From an uncultured Clostridia bacterium (lineage in GTDB: Bacteria > Bacillota > Clostridia > Oscillospirales > CAG-382): a stretch of 64,000 nt of DNA. The notes beneath the pieces were generated by a model. It did no database searches. It was not told the origin of the DNA and saw nothing but the letters and a program-made list of their open reading frames with translations. The stretch covers positions 62,001 through 126,000 of the forward strand of contig CANRIX010000003.1 in assembly GCA_947630765.1 (NCBI GenBank), in the 5' to 3' direction. Shown here in pieces: positions 6,678 through 43,882 of the stretch (position 1 is the first letter of the stretch; every line of letters begins with the position of its first letter). The position numbers and the translations under genes were made by a program.

Positions 6678-6714
6678 GACAAAAACAGAATATACGAAAA
6701 TACGGTTTGAAAAG

Positions 6715-6768
6715 TTGTACGCTGAGTAGATTAAAAGGAAACCCGGTTCGAGTCCGGGACAACCGCCA
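6715..6768 (+). pseudogene. Truncated tRNA-like sequence
   Basis: A complete T-arm (CCCGG TTCGAGT CCGGG, 6742-6758) followed by ACAACC, G and an encoded CCA (6766-6768). GTTGT at 6714-6718 can pair with ACAAC to give a short acceptor stem, but only about 22 nt lie where the D and anticodon arms should be and no anticodon arm can be drawn. It looks like a deleted tRNA gene or an integration scar that still has a promoter. Confidence 0.5.
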
Positions 6769-6789
6769 TTACTGTATTTGACGAGACGA

Positions 6790-6970
6790 GCGCACGAGGT
6801 CCGCGGGGCAGTCTATTCCGGGGAGGAACGCTGCTTTGCGGTCTGGCGGGTCGCCGCGTCATAAGTCAGGAAGTCTGCCGTATTTTCGATGGGGAACCAC
6901 CGCTTTGGTGAGAAGAGTGCAACCGATTTGCTGCCGGGTCATCGGCTTTCGATTTGCGCTCTTTTTTTGC
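6790..6970 (+). promoter_or_regulatory. Structured leader with B12-box-like motif (candidate cobalamin riboswitch) and terminator
   Basis: The segment contains AGTCAGGAAGTCTGCCG (6864-6880), close to the B12 box rAGYCMGgAgaCCkGCC that closes cobalamin aptamers. Upstream are GGTCCGCGGGG, GGGGAGGAA and small hairpins (CGC/GCG, GGCGGGTCGCC) in roughly the expected order, but canonical GGUG and ACUGU core elements are not evident. After the box comes a small hairpin (CACC/GGTG, 6898-6910) and then a strong terminator: AAGAGTGCAA (6913-6922) pairs with TTTGCGCTCTT, followed by a T run ending at 6968. The genes downstream encode transcobalamin-like domains, which is why I favour cobalamin sensing. 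I am confident it is a regulated leader and only moderately confident of the ligand. Confidence 0.5.
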
Positions 6971-7019: not shown

Positions 7020-7064
7020 GCACCCTTTCCCCAAAAATCGGGCGAAAGGGTGCTTTTGCTTTTT
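7020..7064 (+). terminator. Second attenuator-like hairpin in the leader
   Basis: Perfect 10-bp stem GCACCCTTTC/GAAAGGGTGC followed by TTTTGCTTTTT. It ends just before the GGGAGG site of the next gene, so read-through or an alternative fold is needed for operon expression from the upstream promoter. Confidence 0.7.
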
Positions 7065-7078
7065 GGGAGGAGAAAAAC

Positions 7079-7258
7079 GTGACGCCGGAAGATAAGAAGC
7101 GCTGGGCGCAGGAGCGCCTGCGGGAAAAATATGCGGAACTGGGCAGACTGCCGAAAAAAGAGGACTTCGACGACGCGACAAGGGCGCGCATCAAGGCGTT
7201 TTTGGGTCCGTGGCCGCGGGCGCTGGAAGCCGCCGGGCTGAAGGAAAGCAAACCGTAA
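7079..7258 (+). CDS. Small protein with a single HNH-associated-repeat-like domain
   Basis: 59 residues starting at GTG (7079), 8 bases after GGGAGG. The core, REKYAELGRLPKKEDFDD followed by IKAFLGPWPRALEAAGL, matches the pattern of the short helical repeat associated with HNH homing endonucleases (G-R-P-t-x-x-d-F ... FGSWxxALxxAGL). Here it stands alone with no nuclease domain. It lies between the leader terminators and the first surface-protein gene (24 bp gap), so it would share the transcript. It may be a small nucleic-acid-binding or regulatory protein; function unknown. Confidence 0.7.
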   Translation: MTPEDKKRWAQERLREKYAELGRLPKKEDFDDATRARIKAFLGPWPRALEAAGLKESKP

Positions 7259-7282
7259 AAAATTCCATTGGGAGGTATAAAG

Positions 7283-10200
7283 ATGAAGAAAAATCGACTT
7301 ACGGCAGGCCTGCTGGCGCTGCTCCTGCTGTTCCCCGTTTTCCTTTGGGGGACCCGAACCGACGCGGAGGAGTCCTTTACGGAGCGCACCGCGCTTTCCG
7401 CGCAGCTCGCGCAGGAGATCCGTGCGGCGGTCGACAGCGCGAAGGTCAATAACGGGCTTTCGCCGGACGATTCCCTGCTCGGCAGCGGACGCTTTACTAC
7501 GGGCGCCAGCTCCACCGACACCGACTGGATGGCGCTCGCCATGGGGCGCTTTGGCTATTTCGCAGGCGACGGGTATCGGTACCTGATCGAGGATGGCGAC
7601 GGATACGCCGCCTACCTCGCCGCCATGAAAACCTACATCGAAACCGCCTACGCGGAAGAAGGCGGACTGCTCGACAGGGTCAAGTCCACCGAATGGCACA
7701 GGGCGGCCCTCACGGTCGCGTCACTCGGCGGGGACCCGACCGCTTTCGGCACATACGGCGGAGAACCCATCGACCTGATCGCGGACGGAAGCTACGACTG
7801 CGCGGTCCCCGGCGGTCCGGGGCGGCAGGACCTCAACGCATGGATCTGGGGGCTGATTTCGCTGGACGCCGAACTGTACGACGTGCCGGAAGGCGCGAAG
7901 TATCCCCGCGAAACCTTCGTCACCGAGATCCTCAAAGCCCAATTCCCCGACGGCGGGTGGGCGTTAGGCGGATACGCGGCGTCCGACGCGGACATGACCG
8001 GCATGGCGCTCCAAGCGCTCGCGCCCTATTGCAACGACGAAACGGTCTACACCTACCGAAACACGAAAAGCGGGCAAACCGTTTCCAAAACCGTCCGCGA
8101 ATGTATCCAGGAAGCGCTCGACCGGCTGGACGAACTGCAGCAGAGCGACGGCGGCTTCCTCTCCCCGTTCGGGGACGGCGAAGCGGCGGAAAGCACCGCG
8201 CAGGTCCTCACGGCGCTCTGCTCGCTGGGGATCGACCCGGCAGAGGACCCCCGGTTCCGCACGGCGGACGGAAAAACGCTTCTCGACAATCTACTGCTGT
8301 TCCGAACGCCGGAGGGCGGTTTCCGCCATCTCCGAGACGGCGGCTGGAACGCCATGGCGACTTCACAGGCGACCTACGCGCTCGTCTCCTACTGGCGGCT
8401 GGAAAACGGTATGCGGGCGCTTTACGACCTGCGCGAGGACTGGACGCAGGCGGAACGCGCTTCCATCGACGCGGCGGAAGCGCAGATCGACGCCCTGCCG
8501 CCGATTTCCGCCGATCCGACCTACAAGGGTGCGCTGAAGGCGGCGCTTGCCGCCCTTCGGAATGTGCCGACGGCGGAACGCCGGTACGTGTATCACGGCG
8601 AGCGCCTCCTCGAAACCGTCGCGTTCGTGGGCGGCGAGGAAGCGCTGGACGACCCCGCCCTGCCGTACTGCACTTCCATTTCCGTGACCCGAAAGCCGGA
8701 CAGGACCGCGTACACCGAAGGGGAAGCGTTCGACCCGACGGGCATGGTCGTGACCGCCTATTTCAGCGACGGGACGGAGGAGCCGGTCGCGGACTACCGC
8801 TATGCGCCCACGGGTCTGCTGACGATGGCGGACGCCGAAGTGCAGATCGTCTACGGGATCCTGAAAACCTCGCTCCCGATCACGGTGACGACCGCCCCCG
8901 ACCTGCAGATATGCACGGCGGCGGAATTCCTGCAATTCCGGGATGCGGTCAACGCCGGAAATAATTTCAAGGGCAAGGTCGTCACGCTGACGGCGGACGT
9001 GGACCTGAGCGACGAGATCCTTTGGTCCCCGGTCGCCAACAAAAGCGCCAACGCGTTCGAGGGAACGTTCGACGGCGGAGGACACGTGATCAAGAATCTC
9101 TTCTCCATGACGAAAGGGGTCTTCGGCTACGCGGGTCCGAACGCCGTCATACGAAACCTCGGTCTGGAAAGCAGTACGATCCTGACGACGAACAGCGACG
9201 TCGGCGGTATCGTGAGCGTCTGCAGCGGCGCGAGCGTGATCGACTGCTGGAACGGCGCGGACATCACCTTTTTGGGGTATTCCTCCTACGGCGGCGGCGT
9301 GGTCGGCGTCGTGCGGACGACTGTGGGCGGGCTGATCTCCGGCTGCTACAACACCGGGGCGATCCACGCGAAGGACGGTCCGATCGGCGGTGTGGTCGGG
9401 TACCTCACCACGGACGCGGACGTGACCGTAGAGAACTGCTACAACACCGGCAAGATCTCGCTGGATGAAAACGGCTGGTGGGCAGGCGGCGTGGTCGGCA
9501 AAATGCAGGACAACAACGTCCTGCGGAACTGCTACGCCGTCGGGGAGATCGAGGGCGACGAAAGCGGCGCCATCGTCGCTGCGGTCACGCGGAACGCGAC
9601 GGTCGAAAACTGCTACTACGACCGGGAGACGTTCGCAAACGCGACCTGCGACGGCTCGCACGCCGACGGGACCGTCGGTATGACGGCGCAGGAGATGCGG
9701 GAGCCCGGCTTTGCCGCCCGGCTGCGGGACGCGTACAAGGAGGACCCGTTCGGCTTCGTCAACGGCGGTTACCCGCTTCTGCACTGGCAAAAGACGGAAA
9801 AGGCCGACGCGATCTGCGCGGTCGCCGAGCAGATCGATTCCATCGGGACCGTCGCGCTGGACAGCGCAGACGCCATTCGCGACGCGCGACGCGCCTATGA
9901 CGCGCTGGACGAGGAACTGAAGCCGTATCTTTCCGATCGCCTGCAGACGCTGGAACAGGCGGAAAAAACCTGGGCCGTCCTCCTGCAAGCAGCGAAGGAC
10001 GACGCGAAGGAAGCGCTGCAGGCGTATAAAGCCCTTTCCGATTACCGTGCCGAACAGCAGGCGGAACTGCAGGCGCTCCTGGCAGAATTTTGCGCCCGTA
10101 TCGACGCATCCGCCGACGCGGAAGCGATCGATCTTGCCGTAGCGGAAGCGAAAGCGAGGATGGACGCCGTCAGGACCGCGAAGGAATTTTCGGACGAGGA

Positions 10201-10600
10201 ATCCGCGAGATGCGTTTCCGAGCTGATTGCGGAAATCGGCGAAGTGTCGCTCGAACGGAAGGACATGGTCGAAGCAGCGCGGCGCGCCTATGACGCACTG
10301 TCCGACGAGGCGAAGGCGCTTGTCGGCAACTACGACGCGCTTCTGGAAGCGGAAGCCGAGCTGGAAAAGCTGGAAAGCGAAACGAGCGCCGAAAGCCGTC
10401 CGGCAGACCCGCAGGACCCCGTGTCCGAAACGCCCGATAGTTCCGAAGCGCCCGAAACCCCCGAGACCCCCGACGGTTCCGAAAGCGCCCCGTCCGCGCC
10501 GCAGACGGGCGATGCGGGCGACTTCGCGCCGTATGCCGTCCTTTTGGCGGTCGGGCTGTGCGGACTTTTGCTCGCGAACGCGCGGAAACGCGTCGGATAG
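7283..10600 (+). CDS. Large cell-wall-anchored protein: alpha-toroid, Ig-like, GLUG repeats
   Basis: About 1105 residues. Visible in order: signal peptide (1-25); alpha/alpha-toroid repeats of prenyltransferase/squalene-cyclase style (about 72-380; DGGWALGGYAASDADMTGMAL, QQSDGGFLSPF, TPEGGFRHL), the fold also used by the N-terminal part of transcobalamins; a Big-type Ig-like domain (about 466-537; AYTEGEAFDPTGM); GLUG-type beta-helix repeats (about 540-790; NCYNTGKI, NCYAVGEIEG); a helical FIVAR-like region (about 840-1030); a Pro/Glu/Ser spacer; and the sortase-like signal APQTGD, a hydrophobic helix and RKRVG. The ATG at 7283 follows GGGAGG by 7 bases. It precedes two DUF4430 proteins. It is probably a surface ligand-binding or adhesive component; the ligand is inferred. 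Confidence 0.8.
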   Translation: MKKNRLTAGLLALLLLFPVFLWGTRTDAEESFTERTALSAQLAQEIRAAVDSAKVNNGLSPDDSLLGSGRFTTGASSTDTDWMALAMGRFGYFAGDGYRYLIEDGDGYAAYLAAMKTYIETAYAEEGGLLDRVKSTEWHRAALTVASLGGDPTAFGTYGGEPIDLIADGSYDCAVPGGPGRQDLNAWIWGLISLDAELYDVPEGAKYPRETFVTEILKAQFPDGGWALGGYAASDADMTGMALQALAPYCNDETVYTYRNTKSGQTVSKTVRECIQEALDRLDELQQSDGGFLSPFGDGEAAESTAQVLTALCSLGIDPAEDPRFRTADGKTLLDNLLLFRTPEGGFRHLRDGGWNAMATSQATYALVSYWRLENGMRALYDLREDWTQAERASIDAAEAQIDALPPISADPTYKGALKAALAALRNVPTAERRYVYHGERLLETVAFVGGEEALDDPALPYCTSISVTRKPDRTAYTEGEAFDPTGMVVTAYFSDGTEEPVADYRYAPTGLLTMADAEVQIVYGILKTSLPITVTTAPDLQICTAAEFLQFRDAVNAGNNFKGKVVTLTADVDLSDEILWSPVANKSANAFEGTFDGGGHVIKNLFSMTKGVFGYAGPNAVIRNLGLESSTILTTNSDVGGIVSVCSGASVIDCWNGADITFLGYSSYGGGVVGVVRTTVGGLISGCYNTGAIHAKDGPIGGVVGYLTTDADVTVENCYNTGKISLDENGWWAGGVVGKMQDNNVLRNCYAVGEIEGDESGAIVAAVTRNATVENCYYDRETFANATCDGSHADGTVGMTAQEMREPGFAARLRDAYKEDPFGFVNGGYPLLHWQKTEKADAICAVAEQIDSIGTVALDSADAIRDARRAYDALDEELKPYLSDRLQTLEQAEKTWAVLLQAAKDDAKEALQAYKALSDYRAEQQAELQALLAEFCARIDASADAEAIDLAVAEAKARMDAVRTAKEFSDEESARCVSELIAEIGEVSLERKDMVEAARRAYDALSDEAKALVGNYDALLEAEAELEKLESETSAESRPADPQDPVSETPDSSEAPETPETPDGSESAPSAPQTGDAGDFAPYAVLLAVGLCGLLLANARKRVG

Positions 10601-10605
10601 CCGCC

Positions 10606-13227
10606 ATGTCCGCAAAGAAACTCCTTTCGGCGGCGCTTTGCGTCCTTTTGGTCGCGCTGACGGTGTGCGCCGGACTGCCCGCGACCGCGGCGGACGAACG
10701 GATCGGATCCGCGATCTGGAGCGTGGAAGCGTTCACGGTCGGCGGCGGCTTTCTGGTCGAGCCGACCGAACTGCCGATCTACGCGGGCGAAAATGCGGCG
10801 GACCAATTGCTCCGCCTGCTCCGCCAAAGCGGATTGGTCTGCTATTTCGGCGGGACTGCCGACGACGCGTTCTACCTCGCCTACATCGCGGACGGGACCT
10901 CCACAAGGGCGAAATTCAACCGCTATTCCGGCAGCGGAAGGCCGCAGAACGCGCGGGAGCTGCGCCTTTCGCCATCGATTCCCGCCGTCCTGCTCCCGCA
11001 CCTGCGGGACACCATGGTGTTCTTCGACCCGGACGACTACGAGAAGAACTGGACGGGGTACCTCGGCGAGTTCGTATTCACGAACGGTTCGGGGTGGATG
11101 TACACGGTCAATAACGACTTCCCGGGCGTCGGGTTTTCGGACACGTTCCTGTCCGACGGCGACGTCGTCCGCGTGCAGTTCACGCTGGCGTACGGCGCGG
11201 ACATCGGCGGGCTCGGTGCAACCGGCGGGAACGCACCGGGGGTCGGGAATCAACCGGCTTCGGGGTACTACCCCGTCGCGAACAAGGATGCGCTCTGCAA
11301 AACCATCTGCAAAGCGCTGTCCGCCGGTTCCCTGTCGGGCGGTGAAACCAAAAACGCCTATGCGGACGCACTCGCCGCGATGGCAGCGCCGGACGCTTCG
11401 CAGGACCGCGTGGACAACGCCGCCAGAGCGCTCGCCGACGCGCTTTCCAAGCCGTCGGACGTCCCTCCCCCGCCGAAATCGGACGAGCCGTCTGTTGCGG
11501 TCAGTTCCGCCGTTACGAGCGAACCCTCTGCGCCTTCCGAGACGGTCAGTGCAAGCGCCCCGCCCGTATCCGAACCCCCCGACACCCCAAGCGAACCGCC
11601 TGTCTCCAACCCCCCCGAAACCCCAAGCACCCCGCCCGAACCCGACACCCCCGGCGACGCAAACGACCCGCCCGTCCCCGTTTCGGACGCGGCGCTGTCG
11701 GTCGCCGACGGGATTCTCCGCTGGAAGAAAGCCGAAAACGGTTCGCCTGCGGACGGATTCCTGCTGAACGACGCATTTCTGGCGAGCGCCGGCTCGACGG
11801 CGGGCGACTGGTACCCCATCGGGCTCGACCGGCTCGGCATTTCGGACAATTTCGACGGCTACCTCGCCGTGCTTACGGACCGAATCGAGGAACGGTACCG
11901 GGAACCCGGTCGGCTGAGCGCCGCCAAAGCCACCGAATGGCACCGCATCGCGCTTGCCATGCTTGCCGCGGGCGGCGACCCGACCCACGCCGGCACCGAC
12001 GAAAACGGAAACCCCATCGACCTGATCGCGGACGGGACCTACGACCGGGGGAAAACGGCCCCGCTCGGCAGACAAGGGCTCAACGGCTGGGTCTGGGGGC
12101 TGATCGCCCTCGACAGTATGCGGTACGACGTCCCGGCGGACGCCTGCGACACGCGGGACGGCATGATCGCCGAGATCCTGCGCCAACAGCTCCCGGACGG
12201 CGGGTTCGCCCTGAACGGGACGGAAGCCGATCCCGACATGACCGCCATGGTCCTGCAGGCGCTTGCGCCCTATCGCGACAGCGACCGGGTCTACGCCGAA
12301 GCGGTGAAAACCGTCCCCGACGCGATCGAGGACGCGCTCGCCTGCCTTTCCGCGCTGCAGCTGGACGCCGGCGACTTCGCCAGCTGGGGCACGGAAAACG
12401 TGGAAAGCACCGATCAGGTGCTGATCGCGCTGTGCTGTCTCGGCATCGACCCGCTGACCGACGCGCGGTTCTGCAAAAACGGGCATACGCTGCTGGACGG
12501 GATCCTTCGGTATCGCTTGCCGGACGGCGGATTTGCCCATTCCTTCGCGTATGACCCGAACAACCCCACCGCCTCGCCGGGCGAGTCCAACGCGATGGCG
12601 GGCGAACAGACGCTGCTCGCGATGGCGGCGCTTTGGCGGCAGCAGAACGGGCTGCACACGCTTTACGATTTCCGCCCCGAAGAAGATGCCGAACCGCAGG
12701 AAAACGCTACCGTTCGCTTCGACGACGCGGACCGCGAAGCGGCGGACAGCCTGCCGGATACGCTGACGACGGCGTATGAAGCGACGGTCACCTCCCTGCT
12801 CGACAAACTGCTGCGGTCGGAAGATTTCGACGGCAAAGCCGCCTACCTGCAAAAGCTGACCGACGCGAAAGCGACGATCGCGGCGATCCGGGCGGAGATC
12901 GACGCCTTGAACGCGGAAATTCGCGAAACCCTCTACCCGTTCGACCGGCTCACGGTTCGCGACAGGGAAACCGTGGACGGTATCTTCGAGCGCTGCATGG
13001 CGCTGAGCGAATACGACCGCACCCAAATCGAACGCTTCGACGACGTGCAGCGGGCGAAAACCCAGATCGACGGCGCACTGCGCGGACGTCTGCTCGCCGT
13101 CGTCCTGTGCGTCGCCGCAGCGGGGATCGCGTTCTGCCTCGTGCGCAGGGTCCGAAAACGGCGCAAACGCCGCGAAACGGAGCGCGAGGAGCTTGCCGCA
13201 CGGTATGAAACGGGGGAGGAACCGTGA
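10606..13227 (+). CDS. Membrane-anchored DUF4430 plus alpha-toroid protein (transcobalamin-like)
   Basis: About 873 residues. Signal peptide (1-25, ending LPATAADE); a DUF4430/transcobalamin C-terminal-like beta domain (about 38-205; ENAADQLLRLLRQSGL and GSGWMYTVNN are typical); a Pro-rich linker (about 283-362); alpha/alpha-toroid repeats (about 398-690; ATEWHRIALAMLAAGGDP, PDGGFALNGTEADPDMTAMVL, LPDGGFAHSFAYDPN); a helical stretch; a C-terminal membrane helix (about 825-845); and a basic cytoplasmic tail. Animal intrinsic factor and transcobalamin pair the same two folds in the opposite order. The ATG is 5 bp after the preceding stop with a weak ribosome site, suggesting coupling. Likely role: cobalamin or cobinamide capture at the membrane, by inference from domains and leader. 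Confidence 0.82.
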   Translation: MSAKKLLSAALCVLLVALTVCAGLPATAADERIGSAIWSVEAFTVGGGFLVEPTELPIYAGENAADQLLRLLRQSGLVCYFGGTADDAFYLAYIADGTSTRAKFNRYSGSGRPQNARELRLSPSIPAVLLPHLRDTMVFFDPDDYEKNWTGYLGEFVFTNGSGWMYTVNNDFPGVGFSDTFLSDGDVVRVQFTLAYGADIGGLGATGGNAPGVGNQPASGYYPVANKDALCKTICKALSAGSLSGGETKNAYADALAAMAAPDASQDRVDNAARALADALSKPSDVPPPPKSDEPSVAVSSAVTSEPSAPSETVSASAPPVSEPPDTPSEPPVSNPPETPSTPPEPDTPGDANDPPVPVSDAALSVADGILRWKKAENGSPADGFLLNDAFLASAGSTAGDWYPIGLDRLGISDNFDGYLAVLTDRIEERYREPGRLSAAKATEWHRIALAMLAAGGDPTHAGTDENGNPIDLIADGTYDRGKTAPLGRQGLNGWVWGLIALDSMRYDVPADACDTRDGMIAEILRQQLPDGGFALNGTEADPDMTAMVLQALAPYRDSDRVYAEAVKTVPDAIEDALACLSALQLDAGDFASWGTENVESTDQVLIALCCLGIDPLTDARFCKNGHTLLDGILRYRLPDGGFAHSFAYDPNNPTASPGESNAMAGEQTLLAMAALWRQQNGLHTLYDFRPEEDAEPQENATVRFDDADREAADSLPDTLTTAYEATVTSLLDKLLRSEDFDGKAAYLQKLTDAKATIAAIRAEIDALNAEIRETLYPFDRLTVRDRETVDGIFERCMALSEYDRTQIERFDDVQRAKTQIDGALRGRLLAVVLCVAAAGIAFCLVRRVRKRRKRRETEREELAARYETGEEP

Positions 13228-13778
13228 AAAAGGACATTTTAGCGGTGCTTAGCGTCCTGCTCCTGCTCGCCGTCGTCGTCAACGGCACCGACGTGCAGTC
13301 GATCGACGAATACTACCTTACGCACATCGACGACGTCACGCCGGAAAGCGAAACCGTGACCATCAGCATCCGCTGCGACGCCGTGCTCGACCACTACGAC
13401 CAGCTCGACCCTGCCCTGCGATCGGACGAGTTCGTCCCACCCGACGGCGTGATCCTGCCGCCGACGGAATACGTCCTGCGGGAGGGCGACACGGTGTTCG
13501 ACCTGCTCGACCGGGCGGTTCGATATAACAAAATTCAAATGGAATACCAGGGCTCCGACCAGAACGGCTTCGGGAGCGTCTATATCCAGGGGATCCACTA
13601 CCTGTACGAATTCTCCTGCGGCCCGTATTCCGGCTGGATGTACCGCGTGGACGGGGTGTACCCGCATTACGGCTGCTCCAGCTATGTCCTGCGGGACGGG
13701 CAGGTCGTCGAGTGGGTCTACACCTGCGACCTCGGGCGCGACGTCGGCGCCGACTGGCTGGGCGGACAGGGGAAATGA
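13224..13778 (+). CDS. Membrane-anchored DUF4430-domain protein
   Basis: 184 residues: an N-terminal hydrophobic anchor (LAVLSVLLLLAVVVNG), then a single DUF4430-like domain at about 75-178 (VLREGDTVFDLLDRAVR, FSCGPYSGWMYRVDGVYPHYGC, VLRDGQVVEWVYTCDLG). The hallmark GxxSGWMYxVNG-type strand is clear. It starts with GTG overlapping the previous stop (GTGA), with GGGGGAGG upstream, so it is translationally coupled. It looks like a minimal version of the beta domain in the preceding protein and may work with the toroid proteins as the second half of a binding site. Confidence 0.85.
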   Translation: MKKDILAVLSVLLLLAVVVNGTDVQSIDEYYLTHIDDVTPESETVTISIRCDAVLDHYDQLDPALRSDEFVPPDGVILPPTEYVLREGDTVFDLLDRAVRYNKIQMEYQGSDQNGFGSVYIQGIHYLYEFSCGPYSGWMYRVDGVYPHYGCSSYVLRDGQVVEWVYTCDLGRDVGADWLGGQGK

Positions 13779-13782
13779 GCCG

Positions 13783-13828
13783 CCCCGCTTCCCCGCATCT
13801 TCCCCCTGCGGAGGATACGGGGCTTTTT
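13783..13828 (+). terminator. Terminator of the transcobalamin-like operon
   Basis: GCCCCG ... CGGGGC hairpin with an inner stem CCCCGCA/TGCGGAGG, followed by six T. Confidence 0.8.
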
Positions 13829-13893
13829 TGCCCAAAAAAACGGAAGGCGACCTGTGCAAAAAGCTGAAAATCCGCCCTTTCCCTTTTCGTGTA

Positions 13894-13922
13894 TTGACAA
13901 AATTGCCGGATTCCGCTATACT
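13894..13922 (+). promoter_or_regulatory. Promoter of the SLH glycosidase gene
   Basis: TTGACA, 17-base spacer, TATACT, 34 bp before the ATG. Confidence 0.85.
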
Positions 13923-13956
13923 GGTTTTAATCAACGATATAATAAAGGAGCAAGTT

Positions 13957-16479
13957 ATGAAAGCAATCAAGCGCCTCCTACCCCTGTTCCTCGCGCTTCT
14001 GATCCTTTCCGTCTCGCTCGCCGGCGCGGTCACGTCGGCGTACTACGCGGGACAATGGGTCGGATTCGGCACCGTCACCGGCTCGACGCACAGCAACCTC
14101 GCCACCGGCGTGGCGTACGACAACACCACCGTCAAAGGCTCCGTCGGCGGCAACCAACGTCTGCACACCCTGACGTTCAATCCCGCGACAAGCAACTACG
14201 TGCCGCTGGTCTACACCAAGAACTCCGGCTACGGCGCGACGACCATCAATTCCGCCAAGGAAGCGGAAGCGATCGGCTACGACGTCAAGGGCGGGGTCAA
14301 CGCGTCCTTCTTCTCCTTCACCGGCAAGAGCTGCAACACCTACGGCGGGGTCAACATCTCCGACGGCAAGATCCTGCAGGGCTGCAACAGCAACGGTGCG
14401 GCGTGGGTGCTCGCGTTCAACAGCGACGGCACCTCCGCGCTCGCCTATTCCAAGGTCTCCTACACGCTCAGCGCGAAGAACAACGCGTGGAGCGCCCCGG
14501 TGGAATGTATCAACATTTGCCCGGAAACCACCTATGGCGGCATCTACTACTATGACGAATTCTGCGGCACCAAGACGGACACCAAGGCCGCCGGCGTGGA
14601 GATCGTCTTCCAAAAGCAGGACCACACCCAACTGACAGTCGGCGGGACGCTCGTCGGCAAGGTGGTCGCCGTTCGGAGCAGCGTTTCCGCCGGCGGGACC
14701 ATCGGGAAGGGTCAGTTCGTGCTGTACGCCTCCAACGCGAGCGCGTACGCCGCATCCCTGCGCTCCCTCGCGGTGGGCGACACGGTGCGGATCACGGCGA
14801 CGGAAACCATGTCCGCCGCAAAGACGATCATGGAGAACTGCAACAGTGCGTTCGTGACCTACGGCTACCACATCGTGGCGAACGGCGCGAACGTGACCGA
14901 TTCGGACGGTTTGGGGTACTCGTTCAACAGTGCCCGTGCACAGCGGAGCGGCATCGGCGTGAAGGCGGACGGTACGCTGGTCATCGTCGCCTCCCCCGGT
15001 CGCACGAGCACAAACACCGGGCTTACCGTCTATGAACTCGCCAACTACTTCATTTCGCAGGGCTGCGTGACCGCGATCGACCTCGACGGCGGCGGCTCGA
15101 CCCAGATGACCATCGAAAAATCCGGCTCGCTGACCACCGCGATCTCCAGCACCCGCCGGGTCGCCAACAGCATCCTCGTCGTCGCCCGTCCGACCATCAG
15201 CGCATCCGATAAGGCGGAACTGAACGGACTGCTCGACGAAGCGAACGCCCTGCGCGAAAACTTCCTGCTCGGCGGCGCGACCGGCGCGCTGGATGCCGCC
15301 GTGACCTACGGCACCGGCGTGCGCGATTCCGCGAAATCCATGCCCGGCGACTACACCAAGGCGATCATGCGCCTGCGGGAAGCGCTCGCGAACGTGACCA
15401 AGACCGGCTACCGCCCGGGCATCTATCGTCTGAACACGGCGTCCACCCTGCAAAGCGGCGCATCCGCCTCTTCGTCCGCCGTTTCCTCGCTCGCCGCCGG
15501 TCGCACCTTCACGGTCACGCAGACCTCCGGCAATTACGGCTACACGAAGGTCCTCGCCAACTTCGGCTGGGTGGATCTGACCAAAGCGACCCGCATCGGC
15601 GGCGCGGTCAACGCGCAGGCGACGATTAACTTCCCGGCGGTCGCCTATAAAGGACAGGACATCACCATCTCCTGGAAGCCGGTCAACGGCGCGGCAGCCT
15701 ACACCTATAAGGTCATCGAGCTGCTCGGCGAGCCGAACCCGGGCGACTCGAACGAATCCGCCAACGCCGTCGCCCTCGCAGACGGCACGACGACGGACGA
15801 CCTGCAAGTCACGATCCCCGCGTCCGCGCGGACGGACGGGCGCTACCTGAAAGTCGCCGTCTGCGTCGAGTATCCGACGGCGAGCATCTGGAACACGGCG
15901 TATATCGCCACGTCCACCCTGCCGTTCACCGACGTCCCGCTCGGCTTCTGGGGCTTTGACGCGGTACGGCACGCCTACGAAAGCGGCTACTTCTCCGGCG
16001 TTTCCGGCACGGAATTCGCCCCGAACGGCACGATGACCCGCAGCATGATGGCCACCGTGCTGTACCGCATGGCGGGCACCCCCGCGATCGACCCGGAGGC
16101 CGTCCAGCCGTTCGTCGACGTCCCGGAAAACACCTGGTACTATGACGGCGTGCGGTGGTGCGCGTCCGTCGGGATCACGTCCGGCGTTTCCGCGACGGAA
16201 TTCGCCCCCGACGGGCTGATCACCCGCGAGCAGGCGGCGGTGTTCCTCTACCGCTTCGCGCAGACGCAAGGGTACGACACGACGGTCGAGGACCTGACCG
16301 CGCTGGACCGCTTCGCGGACGCCGCATCCGTCAGTGACTACGCGCAGACCGCGATGGCGTGGGCGGTGCAGAACGGCATTCTGTCCGGCACCGACGTCGG
16401 TCTGGAACCGAAAGCAAACGCCACCCGTGTGCAGGTCGCGGCGCTGCTGTACCGTTTCGATACGGTTTTCGCGGAGTAA
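13957..16479 (+). CDS. S-layer-anchored phosphodiester glycosidase (NAGPA domain, SH3, 3x SLH)
   Basis: About 840 residues. Signal peptide (1-27); a phosphodiester-glycosidase/NAGPA-like domain (about 60-410) with GGVNASFFS and the characteristic AIDLDGGGSTQM; an SH3-like module (about 485-545; FTVTQTSGNYGYTKV); a fibronectin-like segment; then three SLH repeats (about 650-840; FTDVPLGFWGFDAVRHA, FVDVPENTWYYDGVRWC, FADAASVSDYAQTAMAW). NAGPA-family enzymes uncap sugar-phosphodiesters; secreted bacterial versions are linked to exopolysaccharide or wall glycopolymers. SLH repeats imply retention through a secondary wall polymer. The ATG at 13957 follows GGAG by 6 bases. It is monocistronic with its own promoter and terminator. 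Confidence 0.88.
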   Translation: MKAIKRLLPLFLALLILSVSLAGAVTSAYYAGQWVGFGTVTGSTHSNLATGVAYDNTTVKGSVGGNQRLHTLTFNPATSNYVPLVYTKNSGYGATTINSAKEAEAIGYDVKGGVNASFFSFTGKSCNTYGGVNISDGKILQGCNSNGAAWVLAFNSDGTSALAYSKVSYTLSAKNNAWSAPVECINICPETTYGGIYYYDEFCGTKTDTKAAGVEIVFQKQDHTQLTVGGTLVGKVVAVRSSVSAGGTIGKGQFVLYASNASAYAASLRSLAVGDTVRITATETMSAAKTIMENCNSAFVTYGYHIVANGANVTDSDGLGYSFNSARAQRSGIGVKADGTLVIVASPGRTSTNTGLTVYELANYFISQGCVTAIDLDGGGSTQMTIEKSGSLTTAISSTRRVANSILVVARPTISASDKAELNGLLDEANALRENFLLGGATGALDAAVTYGTGVRDSAKSMPGDYTKAIMRLREALANVTKTGYRPGIYRLNTASTLQSGASASSSAVSSLAAGRTFTVTQTSGNYGYTKVLANFGWVDLTKATRIGGAVNAQATINFPAVAYKGQDITISWKPVNGAAAYTYKVIELLGEPNPGDSNESANAVALADGTTTDDLQVTIPASARTDGRYLKVAVCVEYPTASIWNTAYIATSTLPFTDVPLGFWGFDAVRHAYESGYFSGVSGTEFAPNGTMTRSMMATVLYRMAGTPAIDPEAVQPFVDVPENTWYYDGVRWCASVGITSGVSATEFAPDGLITREQAAVFLYRFAQTQGYDTTVEDLTALDRFADAASVSDYAQTAMAWAVQNGILSGTDVGLEPKANATRVQVAALLYRFDTVFAE

Positions 16480-43747: not shown

Positions 43748-43772
43748 TTTGTCATGTGAAAAAATCGAATTT

Positions 43773-43882
43773 CGCTTTCGTAACTGACGGAAACATAGAG
43801 TCAACTATGATGGAGCGTAAGCGAAGGGAACCGCCGACCGTCTGGGCATCGTTTGTCGCGACGTACCCGCACGGTCTTTTTT
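43773..43882 (+). promoter_or_regulatory. ZTP (pfl-type) riboswitch with terminator
   Basis: The leader matches the pfl/ZTP aptamer. ACTGACGG (43783-43790) starts P1; CATAG/CTATG forms P2; GGAGC follows; and the second domain is CCGCCGACCGTCTGGGCA, the most conserved part of this class. The expression platform is visible: GACCGT (43836-43841), inside the aptamer, can instead pair with ACGGTC (43871-43876) followed by six or seven T, giving a terminator when ligand is absent. ZTP signals shortage of 10-formyl-tetrahydrofolate, so ligand should increase PflB and formate supply. Confidence 0.9.

Follow-up and report, generated by a model that had tools for sequence, protein, structure and literature searches.

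The closest described relatives of the system reported here are the vitamin B12 carriers of animals and a family of bacterial surface proteins. Vertebrate transcobalamin, intrinsic factor and haptocorrin are single chains with an N-terminal alpha/alpha toroid and a C-terminal beta domain; in the animal carriers, the two domains associate in a cobalamin-dependent manner (PMC11107200). Burroughs et al. (2007; PMC1796856) described a transcobalamin-like clade of SLBB domains (the DUF4430 of this paper) in low-GC Gram-positive bacteria. These proteins have signal peptides and Gram-positive anchors, are fused to toroids in both orders, and can occur as paralogues within one operon; CbiO and CbiQ genes are general but not universal neighbours, and the hosts are usually short of key B12 synthesis enzymes. 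B12 scavenging was proposed for the clade, as was transfer to animals; riboswitches are not mentioned in that paper. We analysed an operon with such proteins in a 64,000-nucleotide stretch of DNA (the window; contig CANRIX010000003.1, positions 62,001 to 126,000) from an uncultured Clostridia bacterium, a gut Firmicute. Very likely, cobalamin represses the operon and its products capture vitamin B12 or related corrinoids at the cell surface. The capture idea is not new, having been put forward by Burroughs et al. for the same clade; what is new here is the association with a riboswitch, with numbers, the CbrT-like substrate-binding (S) component, the split layout of the proteins and a small HNH_repeat gene. 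Experimental tests of these bacterial proteins were not found in the open-licence papers searched.

The leader of the operon contains a cobalamin riboswitch aptamer (RF00174) at 6686-6896 of the window, on the plus strand, as are all features of the leader, the operon and its terminator given below. The match scores 53.8 bits (gathering cut-off 31.5 bits; E = 1.5e-12 when the leader alone is searched); what a previous sequence-only reading of this DNA had called a B12-box-like motif is a full Rfam riboswitch. It is the single cobalamin riboswitch in the 2.11 Mb genome. In a transcription-terminating switch, the aptamer is usually followed by a terminator hairpin and a T run. Here, an intrinsic-terminator-like hairpin with seven T after it lies directly behind the aptamer (6910-6967; -24.7 kcal/mol, z -2.6) and is, from its sequence and position, the probable expression platform; we infer that the riboswitch acts as an OFF switch. 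A second hairpin (7020-7053; -23.4 kcal/mol, z -3.3), with a T-rich stretch behind it extending the element to 7060, is located 5' of the HNH_repeat gene.

Three exported proteins are encoded further downstream. In protein 1 (7283-10600; 1105 amino acids), a signal peptide is followed by a toroid, a Big_3 domain, a GLUG-like region, a helical stalk and a sortase signal. Its predicted toroid (7490-8473) is assigned by homology, through a family profile, the two window toroids being 48% identical. The C-terminal sorting signal (10493-10600) consists of SAPQTGD, a hydrophobic stretch and a basic tail; the motif, as (S)PQTGD or PETG, is kept in most relatives and the genome has three sortase genes, all of which bears out the sortase anchor suggested earlier. 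Protein 2 (10606-13227; 873 amino acids, counted from an ATG at 10606) consists of a signal peptide, a split DUF4430, a linker, a toroid, a helical stalk and, at the C-terminus, a membrane anchor. Protein 3 (13224-13778; 184 amino acids) has an N-terminal membrane anchor followed by a DUF4430 (13428-13745, profile match). The genes for proteins 1 and 2 are separated by a 5-bp gap, while those for proteins 2 and 3 overlap by GTGA. Coordinates, protein sizes, gene junctions and domain types are all as the sequence-only reading had them.

The transcription unit most likely ends after protein 3, because a hairpin (13782-13823; -26.6 kcal/mol, z -3.1) and T run (whole element 13782-13829) lie 3' of that gene and the following gene is preceded by a sigma-70-type promoter, TTGACA-17-TATACT, at 13894-13922. 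The consensus promoter scan by itself is not above chance, and the reading of the unit end relies on terminator and promoter combined.

The pairing of toroid and DUF4430 on protein 2 is seen with Pfam, with the family profile and in an AlphaFold model (predicted local distance difference test score 83; toroid blocks mostly above 90). The toroid is at 11668-12675 (residues 355-690) and its fold is certain in the model. Two DUF4430 profile matches in this protein are, according to the model, the halves of a single beta domain (10699-11190, residues about 32-195) with an insertion at about residues 110-150; two tandem DUF4430 domains are rejected on this ground. Pfam DUF4430 matches protein 3 at E = 1e-15 and protein 2 at 3e-6, and Pfam Prenyltrans matches the toroids of the window weakly. 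An NCBIfam search of the window proteins gave nothing informative.

The operon shares much with those of Burroughs et al. (PMC1796856): the SLBB proteins are exported or anchored, the toroid of protein 2 is fused C-terminally to SLBB, a second SLBB paralogue is present, partner genes are of the energy-coupling factor (ECF) type, B12 scavenging is the proposed role and the host lacks a key B12 synthesis enzyme (CbiC). It differs in that the first structural gene encodes a wall-anchored protein with a toroid and no DUF4430, in having an HNH_repeat leader gene, which is not mentioned in that paper, and in that the CbiO/CbiQ-like genes are outside the operon in the window genome; in relatives they are inside.

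The link between riboswitch and DUF4430 is more frequent than chance among relatives. Taking 60 related genomes together with the window's own, there are 41 cobalamin riboswitches; 25 of them are followed on the same strand, within 8 kb, by a DUF4430 gene, where random placement expects 0.11. A toroid scan of GTDB genomes gave 78 named loci, mostly in Firmicutes, with hosts including Desulfosporosinus, Sporosarcina, Kurthia, Lysinibacillus, Paenibacillus and Clostridium. Of these loci, 75 contain DUF4430, 60 EcfT, 55 a double-ATPase EcfA and 42 an S component; many loci are cut by contig or stretch ends, and the totals include own-genome loci (two for EcfT, one for EcfA) and are too high by at most that. 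Direct cmscan searches placed a riboswitch upstream of the operon in 27 of 41 scanned named Firmicute loci; since the first 30 were picked as flagged by the genome scan and the last 11 as unflagged, the count serves as confirmation, the loci not being sampled at random. When positions on contigs were used for the mapping, 34 of 49 loci had a riboswitch; L106, L110, L111 and L155 were not confirmed above the cut-off in direct scans, and riboswitch counts for named loci use direct scans only. Commonly, the riboswitch is followed by a small HNH_repeat gene, then by the genes for toroid and DUF4430 proteins and for a small DUF4430 protein, and lastly by EcfT, EcfA and EcfS; the ECF genes are missing from this place in the window genome and in the two congeners nearest to it.

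In seven loci (L055, L057, L058, L059, L060, L061 and L062), a cobalamin riboswitch precedes a two-gene unit of a small DUF4430 protein and a CbrT-like S component, with no toroid proteins nearby. These units are possibly a minimal form of the capture system.

The ECF genes point to vitamin B12 as the substrate. Compared with the PDB, the family profile of the S component matches 6FNP best, at 3.6e-20 (RibU, 0.0065), and the S component of the window's genome matches 6FNP at 1.2e-9 by itself. 6FNP is ECF-CbrT of Lactobacillus delbrueckii, a characterised vitamin B12 importer in which CbrT is described from an nrdJ-cbrS-cbrT-pduO cluster (PMC5997447). The S components are homologous; the systems differ in that capture proteins are additional here and in that EcfT and the double-ATPase EcfA of relatives adjoin the S component as a dedicated set. 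The window's genome encodes EcfA and EcfS on one contig (C2) and EcfT on another (C20); identities to the operon-borne genes of the nearest relatives are 56-59% for EcfT, 57-62% for the double ATPase and 53-58% for EcfS. EcfT matches Pfam CbiQ, a family named after cobalt transport, and the solved structure nearest to the DUF4430 profile, 3u7z, carries the label of a putative metal-binding protein; it might therefore be proposed that the ligand is not a corrinoid and instead is cobalt, a complex of cobalt or another tetrapyrrole. We consider this improbable: the match of the S component is to CbrT, a B12 component that has been characterised, rather than to CbiM or RibU, the toroid and beta domain are the folds that bind cobalamin in animals, and CbiC, which is required for corrin synthesis from free cobalt, was not found in the genome.

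That genome is 97% complete, and CbiC is the single B12-synthesis enzyme that was checked. MetH is present, with the motif DVHDIGKN. The organism needs a corrinoid but most likely does not make one, because MetH is present and CbiC absent. A FecCD permease (BtuC type) was not found in the whole genome, while control genomes were positive; the absence of BtuCDF genes noted earlier for this stretch extends, for the permease, to the genome, and a BtuCDF route is rejected. A paper on corrinoid starvation in Dehalobacter was considered as a source for B12-regulated operons and set aside, as it covers BtuCD/CbiZ genes and not these. The sole riboswitch, the association of DUF4430 with riboswitches, the linked CbrT-like ECF genes of relatives, their orthologues in this genome, MetH and the lack of a BtuC-type permease together give good support to the prediction of a corrinoid capture system that feeds an ECF importer; the Gram-positive cobalamin-capture system proposed in the sequence-only reading is supported on the same grounds.

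Homology to the animal carriers is clearest for the beta domain. The DUF4430 family profile matches transcobalamin-2 at 2.3e-6, transcobalamin-1 at 1.2e-4 and intrinsic factor at 1.3e-3 in the PDB; family profiles are required, as phmmer searches of the PDB with the three single proteins gave no transcobalamin match. The two folds are the same as in the vertebrate carriers, but protein 2 has them in reverse order, proteins 1 and 3 have one fold each, and the window proteins are anchored to membrane or wall. A natural fusion in locus L155 combines the toroid and the small DUF4430 in one chain of 612 amino acids, with a membrane hairpin between them, directly 5' of EcfT; this marks the toroid protein and the small DUF4430 protein as partners. 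The top 14 places in a Foldseek search with a model of the fusion are all taken by transcobalamin, intrinsic factor and haptocorrin, with matches spanning both domains. The best 50 VIA rows for this model are without transcobalamin, which carries no weight either way.

Several findings weigh against the capture interpretation. The eukaryotic cobalamin-binding family PF01122 matches no window protein, toroids included, at E up to 1. In the L155 model both folds are present, but the clamp arrangement is not predicted: the deviation from transcobalamin is about 23 A (root mean square) over both domains, and the placement of the domains differs. By fold alone, terpene cyclases and sugar epimerases are as near to the toroid as transcobalamin or nearer. 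The modelled toroid of protein 2 matches transcobalamin in Foldseek at E = 1e-3 (ranks 7, 10, 11 and 12) and in VIA with Z 18.1 over 247 residues (3.2 A, 17% identity); squalene-hopene cyclase reaches Z 22 in VIA. The model of protein 2 thus has both toroid and beta domain, but a special kinship between its toroid and that of transcobalamin does not follow from the fold alone. Lastly, the ECF genes of the window's genome are unlinked from the operon and have no second riboswitch over them.

The fold comparisons bear on the possibility that the exported toroid proteins act as enzymes or adhesins, resembling terpene cyclases or binding carbohydrate, and that B12 regulates them for another reason. 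Squalene-hopene cyclase and drimenyl-diphosphate synthase are among the best sequence and fold matches of the toroid, and Big_3 and GLUG-like regions, as in protein 1, are typical of adhesins. Nevertheless, toroids of this group are tied to DUF4430 and to a B12-type ECF transporter by linkage or fusion, and such a role is very improbable. A class II terpene cyclase is rejected outright, as the catalytic DXDD is replaced by D-x-D-[VIM]-T throughout the toroid alignment.

The unlinked transporter genes, and an operon that stops at a terminator before an unrelated surface gene, would also fit surface corrinoid binding that does not feed import; the proteins could then serve as a store, as a sink that excludes competitors or for the capture of host B12-protein complexes. 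In relatives, however, EcfT, EcfA and EcfS lie directly behind the same genes, and the genome has no BtuC-type permease while its MetH needs a corrinoid. We regard binding without import as unlikely, on a par with the cobalt alternative.

Under the interpretation favoured here, capture for import, low intracellular corrinoid would let the riboswitch allow transcription into the operon. The sortase-anchored toroid protein, the membrane-anchored DUF4430-toroid protein and the small membrane-anchored DUF4430 protein would then be exported. Toroid and DUF4430 may bind a corrinoid by closing on it as in transcobalamin, either inside protein 2 or between proteins; a clamp between two separate proteins is plausible because domain association in the animal carriers is cobalamin-dependent (PMC11107200). 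The ligand may be handed over from wall to membrane and would be delivered to the S component of the ECF importer (EcfT, double-ATPase EcfA and CbrT-like S component) encoded elsewhere in the genome. Once transported, the corrinoid would be used by MetH.

The first gene after the riboswitch (7079-7258) encodes a 59-amino-acid protein with a single HNH_repeat (PF18780; 8.7e-11). The sequence-only reading had set the start of the operon at the first base of this gene, which it did not describe. Among the related genomes and the window's own, 15 are listed with any PF18780 match, and in 13 of them the gene follows a cobalamin riboswitch on its own strand, at a distance of 136-263 bases. The core LGRLPKKEDFDxxTRSRIKAFLGPWPRALEAAGLK is conserved. 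Nonsynonymous divergence (dN) is 0.04-0.15, and synonymous divergence (dS) is near or beyond saturation except in the closest pair; because dN is far below dS, the protein itself is under strong purifying selection. It may belong to the cobalamin regulon as a part so far overlooked; one example would be a small regulator that binds nucleic acid and couples the unlinked ECF genes to the riboswitch-controlled operon. We offer this tentatively, and only jointly with an arrangement in which the transcobalamin halves act in trans, with wall toroid and membrane DUF4430 closing on the ligand and feeding the ECF importer; the combination is rather doubtful.

The product of the gene downstream of the terminator (13954-16479) is exported and combines NAGPA (phosphodiester glycosidase) with three SLH domains; the same neighbour is found in a congener (G014, locus L034). 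This gene is rejected as an operon member, since the terminator and its own promoter at 13894-13922 intervene. Elsewhere in the window, a ZMP/ZTP riboswitch is located at 43770-43854 (56 bits). A further DUF4430 membrane protein is encoded in another part of the genome (L052, 8118-8696; G000:C16:13117-13695), behind an ABC exporter-like ATPase/permease pair. This gene has no cobalamin riboswitch and is conserved in two congeners (L067, L068).

B12 capture at the surface of gut bacteria is known from the Bacteroidetes lipoproteins BtuG and BtuH (PMC6143338, PMC8941943). There, the proteins are different, as is the envelope, and uptake is by the outer-membrane BtuB route. The present operon offers a concrete, testable B12 route for gut Firmicutes without BtuFCD. 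As a bacterial counterpart to intrinsic factor, it is also open to experiment through its riboswitch, its defined operon and an ECF partner with a CbrT-like S component. ECF importers are usually viewed as binding substrate solely via the membrane S component; if true, a relay of binding proteins into an ECF importer would modify this view of ECF transporters. The finding is also relevant to the proposal that the animal B12 carriers came from bacteria, and to possible competition for corrinoids among gut bacteria.

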